Positions 8,228 through 27,830 of a DNA stretch of 64,000 nt are shown here, piece after piece. The position numbers and the translations under genes were made by a program. Numbering within the stretch: position 1 is the first letter of the stretch; every line of letters starts with the position of its first letter. The stretch comes from Arthrobacter sp. EM1 (GTDB lineage Bacteria > Actinomycetota > Actinomycetes > Actinomycetales > Micrococcaceae). The notes beneath the pieces were generated by a model that saw only the letters and a list, made by a program, of their open reading frames with translations, had not been told where the DNA came from and ran no database searches. The DNA is taken from the NCBI RefSeq assembly GCF_029964055.1, contig NZ_CP124836.1, forward strand, positions 3,534,001-3,598,000, written 5' to 3'.

Positions 8228-8692
8228 GTTAGTTACTCCAGTGGGATCAAAGGTGCGCCCACCCGATCAAGGGGAAGAACTGGTCGACGCTAAGTTTTGT
8301 ATGTGCCGCTTACCTCAACTCGCAAGACGCGCGGGGCGCCGGGAAAGATTCAAATGAGGCTTAAAGCGTACACATGGGACTTCACAACGTTAGGGCTTGC
8401 CGCCCTCCAGAGTCAAACCGGGCGTCGCGCCGCAGAGTTTCCCCAGCTGTGGCTAACTCCCTTCCCGGCCTGTGGATGACGAGTGCCAAAGGGTCCCAAT
8501 TCGAACTACAGCAGTGTGATTATCCACAGGACAGAACCCAGCTATCTTCTGCCCATTTGATCCCCTAGAGTGTCCCAGTAGCCGATTATCCACGGACTGT
8601 GCATAACCCTGTGGATTAAGCCGGGGCCAGCGCACTGGTTCGGGCCATGTGGCTGCCGGCAATTTAGGCAAGCAAGTTTGAGGAACTGATTG
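8228..8692. other. oriC, left part: rpmH-dnaA intergenic region with DnaA boxes
   Basis: Divergent intergenic region between rpmH and dnaA. Boxes found by eye: TGTGGCTAA 8448, TGTGGATGA 8471, TTATCCACA 8520 (perfect), TTATCCACG 8586, TGTGCATAA 8598 and TGTGGATTA 8610, the last two 12 bp apart. All but 8520 have one mismatch. The boxes near 8586-8618 sit about 75-107 bp before the dnaA start, consistent with autorepression by DnaA. A possible rpmH promoter on the minus strand is TTGTGA (8387-8382) and TTTAAG (8365-8360) with a 16-bp spacer; this is weak. Confidence 0.75.
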
Positions 8693-24897: not shown

Positions 24898-25779
24898 ATG
24901 AGCTACGGAATTCCGGCGGCGGAGCCGTCCGCGCAGATCCCGGTGTGCCCCAGGCACCCGGATAGGGCCGCCTACGTGCGATGCCAGCGTTGCGGGCGCC
25001 CCGCCTGCCCCGACTGCCAGCGGGCGGCCGCCGTCGGATTCCAATGTGTTGATTGCGTCAACGAAACAAAACGTACGACGCCGGATGTCCGGACGGTCTA
25101 TGGCGGCGCGGTAACCACAGGCAAACCTGTGGCCACGCTTACCCTCATCGGCCTCTGTGTCCTGGTCTATGTTCTCCAGTGGCTGGTGCCGAATGACGAC
25201 ATCTACCAGAACTTCGCGTTCGCTACGGTTTATGCCACCCCGGAGTACGGGGTCTTCGAACCCTGGCGCATGGTGACGTCCGCCTTCCTCCATTCCCAGG
25301 GCTTCATCCTGCACATTGTGCTGAACATGTACATGCTCTGGGTGTTTGGTCAGGCGCTCGAGCCCCTTTTGGGTCGGATCCGCTTCCTTGCCGTCTATTT
25401 GTTGTCCGCCTTCGGCGGCTCGGTCGGCTACCTCGTGCTGACCCCCGGATACGTCCCGGGCCAACCGCTCAGCGGCGTTGTGGGTGCCTCGGGTGCCATT
25501 TTTGGACTTTTTGGCGCCATGCTTGTGGTCCAACGCCGCCGCGGCGGCGATACCAGGCAACTCTGGGTGCTCATCCTGATTAATGGTGTCATCGGCTTCC
25601 TGGTACCGACGATTGCCTGGCAGGCCCACCTGGGCGGGGCGGTAACCGGTGCCCTGTGCGCAGCCGTTGTTGCCTACACCCCGCGCGGACCGCGCCAGGG
25701 ACTAATGCAGGCAGGCGGCCTGGTCCTGGTACTGGCCTTGCTTGTCGGCATCTCCGTTTTCAGGGTTGCCACCGCCTGA
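24898..25779 (+). CDS. Rhomboid-family intramembrane serine protease
   Basis: Intramembrane protease of 293 aa. An N-terminal Cys/His cluster (CPRHP, CQRCGRPACPDCQ, CVDC; about residues 17-53) looks like a B-box-type zinc ribbon. About six membrane helices follow. The catalytic dyad is Ser198 in GASGAIFG and His244 in QAHLGG, and the conserved N-terminal-side HIVLNMYMLW is present. It starts 9 bp after ppiA, so the two are probably co-transcribed, and it is followed by a terminator. Substrates are unknown. Confidence 0.93.
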   Translation: MSYGIPAAEPSAQIPVCPRHPDRAAYVRCQRCGRPACPDCQRAAAVGFQCVDCVNETKRTTPDVRTVYGGAVTTGKPVATLTLIGLCVLVYVLQWLVPNDDIYQNFAFATVYATPEYGVFEPWRMVTSAFLHSQGFILHIVLNMYMLWVFGQALEPLLGRIRFLAVYLLSAFGGSVGYLVLTPGYVPGQPLSGVVGASGAIFGLFGAMLVVQRRRGGDTRQLWVLILINGVIGFLVPTIAWQAHLGGAVTGALCAAVVAYTPRGPRQGLMQAGGLVLVLALLVGISVFRVATA

Positions 25780-25893
25780 AGCCCGGCTGGCCGGTGATCC
25801 CTCCCCCACCCTGCCTGCGGCGGACTCTGTTCCCAGGGATTCCACTCCCGGCTTCCCGCGGCCTTTTTTGGAGCGTAAACGCCGTTTTAGCCA

Positions 25894-25918
25894 ACGCGCC
25901 CTGACGGGCGCGTTTTTT
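25894..25918 (+). terminator. Rho-independent terminator after the rhomboid gene
   Basis: The 8-bp stem ACGCGCCC/GGGCGCGT with loop TGAC is followed by a run of six T. It ends the ppiA-rhomboid transcript before the DnaA-box cluster. Confidence 0.9.
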
Positions 25919-25977
25919 GTGTTGCCACTCCTTGTCTGGCTGGGCCCGGCAGGCCCGGCGACAGTATCCCGCAGTAG

Positions 25978-26643
25978 TTCTCCACAGGGGTTATCCACAC
26001 TGTTGGTAACTTACACACGTGTAGTTCATCAGCCCACCATTGATCTGACGGCCACACCGGGGGATCTTGCGAAGCGGCGCCAAGCGATTTCCACAATTGT
26101 GGATAACCGCGGTGGGGAGGGCTGTGGTTAAGTGGACAACCCGGGTCCTGCTTGGGTTCGATCCGGTGCAGATGCCAAAGAAGTGACGATCGGTGCCCGG
26201 TACGGATGGCAAACTCCGGTCAGGTGGCCGTCTCGACGTTGATTTCAACAAGTTTTTGCACAGTGTTAATAACTTGTCGCTCCAAGTAAGGTAGCCAGGA
26301 TCGGCCCCACAGTGCGTTGGAGCGCCTCTAGCGGGACCCGACGGGCCAACTTATCCCCAACTGTGGATAAGTTGTGGGTACTGGGTTGTTATTAAGTGGA
26401 TAACTCGTGAGAAGGGGCACGGTTGAGCCCTTTTGCCGGTCATTTCCCGGCTAATAGTCCCACTGCGACGAAGAGCGTGCCGGACCGAATACTTATCCAC
26501 AGGCAATCCACACTGTTAATAACTACCGGGACTGTCAGAGTGTGCGTATCCCTCGCCGGACGAGGCCCCTAAAGGCCAGCATCCGCGGGGAAGGCGGCGA
26601 CGAGAGCCAAAGACTGCCAGAAGTTATCCACACTGTGGATAAC
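25978..26643. repeat. DnaA-box cluster in the rhomboid-tag convergent gap
   Basis: Six perfect DnaA boxes: 25991 (+), 26098 (-), 26362 (-), 26493 (+), 26624 (+) and 26634 (-). One-mismatch boxes are at 25978, 26123, 26351 and 26395. Positions 26624-26642 form an inverted pair one base apart, TTATCCACA-C-TGTGGATAA. TCCACAATTGTGGA (26090-26103) is a 14-bp palindrome. AGTGTTAATAACT (26262-26274) and CTGTTAATAACT (26513-26524) resemble the AT-rich element of oriC at 10355-10367. Both flanking genes point in, so promoter control is unlikely. No gene was seen in 25780-26674. Confidence 0.85.
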
Positions 26644-26674
26644 TTAAACCATACTTGTTCACAGCCTGCTGTCC

Positions 26675-27280
26675 TTAGCGCGGCCAGATGCCCGAGCTTC
26701 CCCGACGGTGGCTGTCCATCAGATGCGTATCAACCATTCCGATGGCTTCCATCAAGGCGTACATGGTGGTGGGGCCGACAAAGGCGAAACCACGCTTGCG
26801 CAATGCTGTGGACAGGGCGATGGACTCCGTCGACGTTGTGGGGATGTCCGCATGCGTTCTCGGCAGGGGTGTAGAGGCGGGTTGGAAGGACCACACGAAG
26901 TCGACCAGCCCGCCGTCGGCCCGCAGGGCGATAGTGGCTTGGGCGTTGGTGACCGCTGCCCGGATCTTCAGCCGGTTGCGGACGATTCCGGCGTCCAGGA
27001 GGAGACGCTGAACATCCGCTTCGGTGAAGGCCGCTACCGTCTCGGGGCGGAAATTCCCGAAGGCGGCCCGGAACGCCGGACGCTTGCGGAGGATCGTGGC
27101 CCAGGACAGTCCGGCCTGGAACGCCTCCAGGCTGATGCGTTCGAACAGTCCCTGTTCGTCCCGCACCGGAAGTCCCCACTCCGTGTCGTAGTACTCGCGC
27201 AGCATCGGATCCACGGCCGCCCAGGGCGGCCTGGCGAGGCCGTCCTCCCCGAGGATCGGGCCGGCTACGTCCCGTACCAT
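26675..27280 (-). CDS. tag: DNA-3-methyladenine glycosylase I
   Basis: Base-excision repair glycosylase that removes 3-methyladenine. The 201-aa protein contains WAAVDPMLREYYDTEWGLPV, the substrate-pocket segment EAFQAGLSWATILRKRPAFR, and a C-terminal FAFVGPTTMYALMEAIGMVDTH with the zinc-binding His/Cys region only partly conserved at the very end (residues after SH are short). The ATG at 27280 has GAGGAA upstream; a longer frame to 27364 is not supported. It is convergent with the rhomboid gene across the DnaA-box cluster. Confidence 0.93.
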   Translation of the reverse strand: MVRDVAGPILGEDGLARPPWAAVDPMLREYYDTEWGLPVRDEQGLFERISLEAFQAGLSWATILRKRPAFRAAFGNFRPETVAAFTEADVQRLLLDAGIVRNRLKIRAAVTNAQATIALRADGGLVDFVWSFQPASTPLPRTHADIPTTSTESIALSTALRKRGFAFVGPTTMYALMEAIGMVDTHLMDSHRRGSSGIWPR

Positions 27281-27351
27281 CCGGGTTTCCTCACTCGCAC
27301 TATTCTCCGCTCCAGGCTGACGGGCCCGTGGGCTGCCGGGACAAATTGCGC

Positions 27352-27383
27352 AAAAGACCGGCACACGGGGTGTACCGGTCTTT
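27352..27383 (-). terminator. Terminator after crgA
   Basis: The inverted repeat AAAGACCGG (27353-27361) / CCGGTCTTT (27375-27383), with further pairing inside and a TTTTG tail on the minus strand, lies 18 bp after the crgA stop. Confidence 0.75.
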
Positions 27384-27400: not shown

Positions 27401-27655
27401 TTAGGACCGCCAGCGGGTGGTCATTAGGAAGCCGGCGATGGCGATTCCGAAACCAGCCATAATGTTCCCTGATCCCCAGGCGGCCACGGGAAGTGTGCCT
27501 TCGCTGATGTAGAAAGTGATGATCCACAGGAGGCCGAGGATCATCAGGCCAAACATTACGGGCTTAAACCAGACCGGGTTGGGTTTGTTGGCCTGCGCGG
27601 CGGAAGTCTGTGGCGTTGCCTCGATTGTGCGCTTGCGGCGTTTTGACTCGGGCAC
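27401..27655 (-). CDS. crgA: Cell division protein CrgA
   Basis: Small actinobacterial divisome protein, 84 aa, with a basic N-terminus (ESKRRKRTIE) and two membrane helices at about 28-48 and 60-78. The conserved turn WIITFYISEGTLPVAAWG is present. In Streptomyces it delays septation; in mycobacteria it tethers FtsZ, FtsI and CwsA. The GTG at 27655 follows a perfect AGGAGG; the longer open frame to 27721 is not used. It is divergent from sortase E. Confidence 0.95.
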   Translation of the reverse strand: MPESKRRKRTIEATPQTSAAQANKPNPVWFKPVMFGLMILGLLWIITFYISEGTLPVAAWGSGNIMAGFGIAIAGFLMTTRWRS

Positions 27656-27830
27656 GGGTCCTCCTGGGCGGCTGGAACAAAAGCGGGACCCCGGCTTGAT
27701 ATCCTGCAAGGAGGAATGCACCGGCGGTCAGCGCGCTTTTGGTCATGTTTGTGGTCGTATTCGGACCCAATTCTAGCTGTAGTTAACACCGCGGCGGTGT
27801 CCGCCGCGAACGTCCGGGAGGAGAAGCCAC

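Follow-up and report, generated by a model that had tools for sequence, protein, structure and literature searches.

What does a dense cluster of DnaA boxes do in the gap between two converging genes, some 16 kb away from dnaA? The question is raised by a stretch of 64,000 nucleotides from the genome of Arthrobacter sp. EM1 (the window, at its whole length), in which the boxes fill the space between a rhomboid gene and the glycosylase gene tag. An initial annotation had counted six perfect TTATCCACA boxes and at least four with one mismatch to it in this gap. It proposed a DnaA-titration site like datA, a DnaA-reactivation site like DARS or an accessory origin, and it named box density over the genome and conservation in related genomes as checks. 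Our answer is tentative. It is quite possible, if short of probable, that the gap is an oriC-proximal site at which DnaA and a putative partner protein form an ordered complex which controls DnaA and restrains initiation. We base this on comparison of sequences and on published work on mycobacteria.

Both counts of boxes are confirmed. The perfect boxes start at 25991(+), 26098(-), 26362(-), 26493(+), 26624(+) and 26634(-), the one-mismatch boxes at 25978, 26123, 26351 and 26395. They lie on both strands and include, as described, a head-to-head pair at 26624-26642 with a one-base spacer. Perfect boxes are scarce. The whole genome of 3,885,750 bp has 27, six of which are in this gap, and outside the gap never more than two are found within 700 bp of each other. 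Around dnaA itself the only perfect boxes are indeed those at 8520 and 10335, and the window holds two additional ones at 654 and 1020 that had not been listed. With zero to one mismatch there are 41 boxes in the window where 4.49 are expected; genome-wide, 356 boxes with up to one mismatch compare with 170 matches of the reversed pattern. The excess in the window, the distribution of the perfect boxes over the genome and the permuted-box control given below lead us to reject chance clustering.

Missing from the initial annotation were the weak boxes (two mismatches each), the way in which boxes form pairs, and a palindrome at 26011-26026. With these included, the cluster reads as follows.

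25978-26009, plus strand: three-box core including its spacers (4,1)
25978-25986, plus strand: DnaA box 1 of the core, TTCTCCACA, one mismatch
25991-25999, plus strand: DnaA box 2 of the core, perfect TTATCCACA, 4 bp past box 1
26001-26009, minus strand: DnaA box 3 of the core, weak (two mismatches), plus strand TGTTGGTAA, head-to-head with box 2 over a 1 bp spacer, conserved block
26011-26026, plus strand: palindrome TTACACACGTGTAGTT adjoining the core
26087-26106, no strand assigned: head-to-head dyad ATTTCCACA-at-TGTGGATAA, including the perfect box 26098(-)
26123-26139, minus strand: two more reverse boxes, TTAACCACA and TTGTCCACT, conserved block
26254-26272, no strand assigned: weak dyad TTTTGCACA-g-TGTTAATAA, conserved block despite two mismatches per half
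26351-26370, no strand assigned: dyad TTATCCCCA-ac-TGTGGATAA, including the perfect box 26362(-)
26395-26403, minus strand: DnaA box TTATCCACT
26493-26501, plus strand: perfect DnaA box
26504-26522, no strand assigned: weak dyad CAATCCACA-c-TGTTAATAA
26624-26642, no strand assigned: perfect dyad TTATCCACA-c-TGTGGATAA
26655-26663, plus strand: box TTGTTCACA at the tag end of the cluster

Six head-to-head pairs with spacers of 1-2 bp can be drawn from this list (25991/26001, 26087/26098, 26254/26264, 26351/26362, 26504/26514 and 26624/26634), and in several of them one partner is weak (TTATTAACA-like or TTACCAACA). When up to three mismatches per pair and spacers of 0-5 are allowed, the window has six dyads, four of which are in the gap. 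We aligned 13 close gaps, with the gap of a nearly identical strain (L001, itself among the 13) as reference. Identity to the reference is 96.6% at box positions and 50.0% at other positions, and the weak dyad halves fall in the same conserved blocks as the strong ones. Their conservation suggests that the weak halves are probably functional and that spacing matters; even so, boxes with two mismatches may fail to bind.

For the comparison with other genomes the gap was defined as the interval between the rhomboid gene (ppiA if no rhomboid was found) and crgA or tag, and class loci were drawn from the matches listed. Together with the window, the 227 loci make 228 sequences. No gap can be defined in 36 of them, namely 10 named Arthrobacter-type loci (no crgA match) and 26 others, which comprise 2 without a crgA match, 14 from Micrococcaceae and 10 remaining ones. 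Of the 80 named Arthrobacter-type loci, one (L019) stops at the rhomboid; each of the other 79 has five boxes or more within an 800-bp stretch that lies at the rhomboid end or beyond it. Where a gap can be defined, in 70 of the named loci, it never holds fewer than five boxes, and in family f1 each of the 27 gaps has at least two. Both checks named at the outset, genome-wide density and conservation in relatives, thus speak for the cluster.

The boxes are also found throughout the class, where crgA (PF06781) is present in 385 of 394 genomes. Among 121 further class loci, from which the window and the named loci are excluded, 118 have a box with up to one mismatch from TTRTCCACA in the gap, and these represent 22 of 23 families. 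Two of these loci are one genome (L099 and L223) and the gaps of L144 and L224 are identical to earlier ones; after removal of the repeats a box is present in 115 of 118 distinct gaps. Box density by family is 0.77-51 per kb inside the gap and 0-0.69 per kb beside it, the empty f6 gap apart. A species oddity can thus be rejected, as the boxes recur in near relatives and in the class. Family f11 we take as mycobacterium-like on its CrgA: one such protein is matched to two CrgA chains of solved structure, 9nm2 and 2mmu, at about 1e-41. The latter is presumably the M. tuberculosis structure.

Over 94 gaps of other families the real box gives 182 matches, and 200 permutations of it give 3.1 on average and 29 at most. 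In the Arthrobacter-type group the best permuted 9-mer reaches 132 matches compared with 797 for the box, and one permuted 9-mer occurs in every gap. Conserved words other than boxes therefore exist in the Arthrobacter-type gaps. A general property of intergenic or AT-rich DNA was rejected, since permuted 9-mers, reversed patterns and shuffled gaps all fall short. A coding or RNA origin of the conservation is out as well: the gap has only mechanical open reading frames, and no Rfam family matched in a scan of 25700-26750.

Is it the number of boxes that is conserved, or their arrangement? We scanned the same 94 gaps with all four orders of three boxes at spacers of 0-5. Two tandem boxes followed by an opposed one (++-, or its reverse complement) is the best order, with a mean best mismatch of 3.82 as against 6.16, 6.74 and 6.49 for the other orders and 10.7 for mononucleotide shuffles. 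At up to five mismatches this order is found in 86 of the 94 gaps, the others in 32, 17 and 21. When f1 is added to the other families (114 gaps, up to six mismatches), the spacers are (4,1) in 57, (3,2) in 21 and (3,3) in 18. The common architecture spans about 32 bp: two outer boxes, one forward and one reverse and in most cases 14 bp apart, enclose a middle box that may lie on either strand.

With up to three mismatches the (4,1) core has a single match in the genome of strain EM1, at 25978-26009. It was found in 81 of 120 family genomes and in 115 of 394 class genomes, the reversed control giving 0 in either case. For 73 of the 81 family genomes the core and crgA are on one contig; in 54 of these the core lies no more than 6.5 kb 3′ of crgA, without a further copy elsewhere, and 19 have it only elsewhere. 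A set of 19 Micrococcaceae loci was examined because no core had been found just 3′ of crgA. Eight of them carry it beside the rhomboid gene (L218, L239, L241, L242, L245, L247, L248 and L250); in L246 it is upstream of dnaA, and in the other ten it lies elsewhere. A strict dependence on crgA is rejected on account of these loci. For the class, the distance could be compared in the 36 of 115 genomes that have crgA among the matches listed: the core is within 1.5 kb of crgA in 35 and within 350 bp in 34, and G353 has it only on another contig. The median distance from core to dnaA is 15.4 kb, with 28 of 30 genomes within 35 kb and a largest value of 70 kb; in the window, 15.9 kb separate the core from the end of the dnaA match.

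Some Micrococcaceae genera have a further box cluster with the same three-box core, within about 0.2-1.7 kb of a gene identified by eye as a putative superoxide dismutase gene. These clusters are at about 6819-7316 in L237, about 6488-6964 in L238, 6132-6340 in L249 and 6070-6316 in L252.

On the crgA side the core is followed, 0-2 bp after its last box, by a palindrome of the form TNACA-N4-TGTNA (consensus TTACACNNGTGTAATT). The full composite of core and palindrome is present in 147 of 189 distinct gaps and in none of 189 shuffled ones. It occurs in 70 of 71 gaps when the window and the named loci are taken together and in 77 of the 118 others, in 14 of 23 families altogether, and in 22 of 23 gaps of f11. 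The palindrome itself is rare: with up to one mismatch, 108 of 120 family genomes contain it, each between one and seven times (overlapping hits on the two strands are counted separately; reversed control 12 of 120), and so do 192 of 384 class genomes.

Where else does the palindrome occur? From the matches listed we picked by hand 32 sites distant from crgA. A whiB-like gene follows 26 of them, and CTTGAC stands 9-10 bp before the palindrome at these 26. Two of the whiB-side proteins are named Whib by Pfam, NCBIfam returned no name for the two WhiB proteins submitted, and the whiB product of L255 has the same motif by eye and a tblastn match. Three of the six sites without whiB (L274, L275 and L279) directly adjoin DnaA boxes. 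In the genome of strain EM1 the sole other place of the palindrome at up to one mismatch is 684133-684150, before whiB. A palindrome-like sequence also abuts the perfect box upstream of dnaA, in three of three genus members and in none of 18 others (21 regions). In the window this is the following element.

8506-8528, plus strand: palindrome-like CTACAGCAGTGTGA and, directly following, the perfect box 8520-8528, upstream of dnaA

The composite, and the copies of the palindrome beside boxes, suggest that a second protein probably works with DnaA here. The palindrome overlaps the apparent -10 of the whiB promoter, which makes a transcription factor its probable reader. BldD-like and FtsR/Rv1828-like proteins would be candidates, but the spacing that we take to be that of BldD does not fit the palindrome.

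Two details of the palindrome sites may be added. At the whiB promoter of strain EM1 (G000:C1:684135; L255:4136) a perfect TTACACNNGTGTAATT lies over the apparent -10 position. In family f27 (L274:3858-3926 and L275:4000-4068) box and palindrome stand together, and the 8 kb retrieved contain no match to whiB.

The genes around the cluster are the following.

24898-25779, plus strand: rhomboid gene (PF01694)
26675-27364, minus strand: tag, DNA-3-methyladenine glycosylase (PF03352), between the cluster and crgA
27401-27721, minus strand: crgA, cell division protein (PF06781), as a rule next to the element in the class loci sampled

As had been stated, rhomboid and tag point inward, and the gene calls bear this out. 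In the scan of 25700-26750 there is a single terminator-like site, at 25893-25914 just past the rhomboid gene, and no match to a sigma-70-like promoter. No Hda was found above the cut-off in the genome.

Other DnaA-box sites were seen outside the gap. At 629-1052 of the window, beyond parB, five forward boxes (zero to one mismatch), partly with a pitch of 12-13 bp, flank a parS-like palindrome at about 900; by eye, further parS-like sites are possible near 2200 and 2550. Some 60 kb to the left of dnaA (G000:C1:3480783-3481088) two perfect boxes lie about 300 bp apart, possibly another DnaA site.

A site in mycobacteria is of help for the question of function. The initial annotation knew of nothing described at this locus in Micrococcaceae. 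That statement needs widening, since a DnaA-binding site published for M. tuberculosis and M. smegmatis (PMC7738170) appears to lie at this place, adjacent to crgA. We refer here to the parts of that paper which concern the region Rv0010c-Rv0011c. The region is among the five most DnaA-enriched ones of M. tuberculosis in vitro, and homologous regions appear in chromatin immunoprecipitation sequencing of M. smegmatis. Recurrent changes hit a palindrome of two DnaA-like boxes. Mutants of the site have longer cells and altered isoniazid susceptibility, like dnaA mutants, and the longer cells of both are likened to hypomorphic dnaA alleles. In dnaA mutants of M. tuberculosis both neighbours of the site show unaltered expression. 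The authors consider either titration or nucleotide exchange possible, infer an altered coordination of replication and division, and see, in these parts, no obvious counterpart of the site in other species (PMC7738170). The gap described here appears to occupy its place.

We suggest that the element could work in the following way. It would be a non-coding DnaA-control element which acts on DnaA itself and not on the neighbouring genes, as the genes converge on it and as the published mycobacterial expression result points in the same direction. On the ancient core of about 32 bp DnaA would build an ordered head-to-head complex; the conserved geometry and the weak halves argue for such a complex and against a loose sponge. 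A putative partner would read the crgA-side palindrome, would also sit on the whiB promoter and could gate the DnaA complex. The site would be copied soon after initiation, given that it lies only about 16 kb from dnaA. DnaA would then be drawn off or inactivated and oriC would not refire early, which follows the logic of datA and is the most likely effect. For such a restraint after initiation speak the position near oriC and the precedents of B. subtilis and S. coelicolor. Micrococcaceae would carry an expanded version in which the core is extended, in the window, to six dyads. That DnaA binds in this species we infer from the perfect boxes and by analogy to the mycobacterial data; the existence of a partner, its role as a gate and the restraining effect are likewise inferred.

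Several observations weigh against this proposal. The gaps of L117, L177 and L128 have no box at all, and many families keep just one to three boxes, which would make a poor sink. In 10 of the 14 Micrococcaceae loci without a definable gap there is no box within 1 kb 3′ of crgA (nine of the ten remaining gapless loci of other kinds have at least one there). Twelve Micrococcaceae genomes have the core only elsewhere on the crgA contig, and in the six inspected it is not beside the rhomboid gene. The composite was not found in f24 (0 of 14), f26 (0 of 10), f3 (0 of 5) and f5 (0 of 2), nor in the single loci of f2, f6, f9, f14 and f28; in f3 and one f5 locus the palindrome is nearby, outside the composite geometry. 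The mycobacterial mutants with longer cells have, according to the part of the paper cited, an unchanged initiation rate, which supports neither sign (PMC7738170). Finally, the strict order of the boxes resembles the core of the E. coli DARS sites, which act positively. As to the roles first proposed, a site for DnaA control is thus supported and little speaks for an origin, and the anatomy does not settle whether control is of the datA or of the DARS kind.

A bolder form of the proposal, to which we give appreciable though minority weight, is that a DARS-like DnaA core is fused to an operator mainly found in the whiB promoter, so that one putative regulator would couple the activation or inactivation of DnaA to the septation programme. 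If this is true, the Rv0010c-Rv0011c site and the cluster of Micrococcaceae would be two states of a class-wide switch between replication and division. In our judgement the limits on initiation in Actinomycetes are poorly known. The conserved position, box order and partner sequence provide a defined element to delete and a defined protein to seek.

The strongest rival is an actinobacterial DARS: ADP-DnaA would assemble head-to-head on the core, release its ADP and leave as apo-DnaA ready for ATP, and the site would promote initiation. We consider this unlikely, if still worth serious attention. Reactivation is argued for by the DARS-like order and by the hypomorph-like phenotype of the mycobacterial mutants with their longer cells (PMC7738170). 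DARS cores are described as having three boxes, one of them opposed, that are spaced alike in DARS1 and DARS2 and make a prominent head-to-head contact (PMC5742627). In the DARS1 region of E. coli K-12 the best ++- unit is TAATACACA-tgg-TTATCCACA-ggaat-AGTGGATAA with spacers (3,5) and 3 mismatches. The DARS2 region yields units with spacers (3,5), at 5 and 7 mismatches, and one with (1,5), at 5 mismatches; the datA stretch reaches 7 at best and the oriC stretch 9; these stretches are of unequal length (DARS1 1.5, DARS2 4.0, datA 0.8 and oriC 0.3 kb) and the units were not matched to published box coordinates. On the other side, the convergent spacer in our gaps is mostly 1-3 bp and not 5 as in the E. 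coli units, and (3,5) occurs in just 2 of 114 gaps. The oriC-proximal position does not fit either, as DARS sites lie between oriC and terC and DARS2 impairs timing when moved next to oriC (PMC5742627). Units of the ++- order at 3 mismatches are also present in the oriC regions of the window itself, so the order alone is no proof of DARS. The unchanged initiation rate of the mycobacterial mutants likewise stands against a promoting role.

Could the site instead tie replication, segregation and division together physically? As a DnaA-dependent domain boundary, or a mark like those of nucleoid occlusion, it might use the palindrome factor as its division arm. crgA and whiB are both tied to septation; the first adjoins the element and the second shares its palindrome. 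The altered coordination of replication and division deduced by the mycobacterial authors would agree with it (PMC7738170, as above). We regard such a tie as improbable.

About equally improbable is a local transcription site, at which DnaA and the palindrome factor would act on rhomboid, tag, crgA or an unseen transcript. The overlap of the palindrome with the apparent -10 of the whiB promoter, and the role of DnaA as a transcription factor in other bacteria (PMC7738170, in part), would fit it. We agree, however, with the initial annotation that local transcription control looks unlikely where the genes converge. Neither a promoter-like match nor an Rfam family came from the scan, the neighbours are unaltered in M. 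tuberculosis dnaA mutants (PMC7738170, in part), and 8 of the 19 loci examined carry the core next to rhomboid though not directly 3′ of crgA.

An accessory replication origin, for which the many DnaA boxes and the somewhat lowered GC content (49-62% in 100-bp windows) could be cited, is very improbable, as no AT-rich tract stands out in these 100-bp windows, the usual DnaA boxes are around dnaA and many families have just one to three boxes in the gap.

How does the element of Arthrobacter sp. EM1 compare with known systems? In the openly licensed literature (subscription journals were not covered and most of the listed papers not opened) we recognised no report of the class-wide conservation, the three-box order or the palindrome. 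With DARS it shares a core of three boxes, two in tandem and the third opposed to them; it differs in its spacers, (4,1) here and (3,5) in E. coli, and in its place about 16 kb from dnaA, the E. coli sites being far from oriC. IHF and Fis of E. coli would be replaced here, if by anything, by the reader of the palindrome. With datA it shares a box cluster on the oriC side and an adjoining site for a second protein, IHF in E. coli and the palindrome here, whereas the E. coli datA stretch is without a ++- unit (7 mismatches at best).

The gap also holds a cluster of consensus boxes outside but near oriC, as in S. coelicolor and B. subtilis. The B. subtilis clusters, reportedly those of Okumura 2012, likewise lie outside the origin; they are several in number. 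For Streptomyces, the clusters of Smulczyk-Krawczyszyn 2006 are said to be named H69, H24 and D78, and from the cosmid name we guess, unverified, that H69 is this gap. They are near oriC and, like the element proposed here, said to repress untimely initiation. In family f26, tentatively Streptomycetaceae, all 10 of 10 loci have 3-6 boxes in the same gap, without the palindrome, unlike the window. In gaps of this family (L111-L115, L158, L160, L167 and L172) inspection by eye suggests a possible long hairpin, and the boxes are accompanied by conserved blocks, among them GCAGGTCAG and TACCGGCGTCAA. SCO3855 is given as a rhomboid in the part of the literature cited (PMC4467639). Partial accounts have it that box clusters near oriC repress untimely initiation in B. 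subtilis and S. coelicolor (PMC4585315, PMC10950094), and that in B. subtilis the removal of six clusters advances initiation, an effect which is strong only with all six removed (PMC5295017, in part).

The closest relative of the element appears to be the Rv0010c-Rv0011c site, Rv0011c being, as we take it, crgA. Both are proximal to oriC and adjacent to that gene, and both contain a head-to-head pair of DnaA-like boxes; here too, the location is between the rhomboid/ppiA block and crgA. They differ in that f11 gaps have one to three boxes (up to one mismatch) and the gap of Arthrobacter sp. EM1 has 12, and in that tag stands here between the cluster and crgA.
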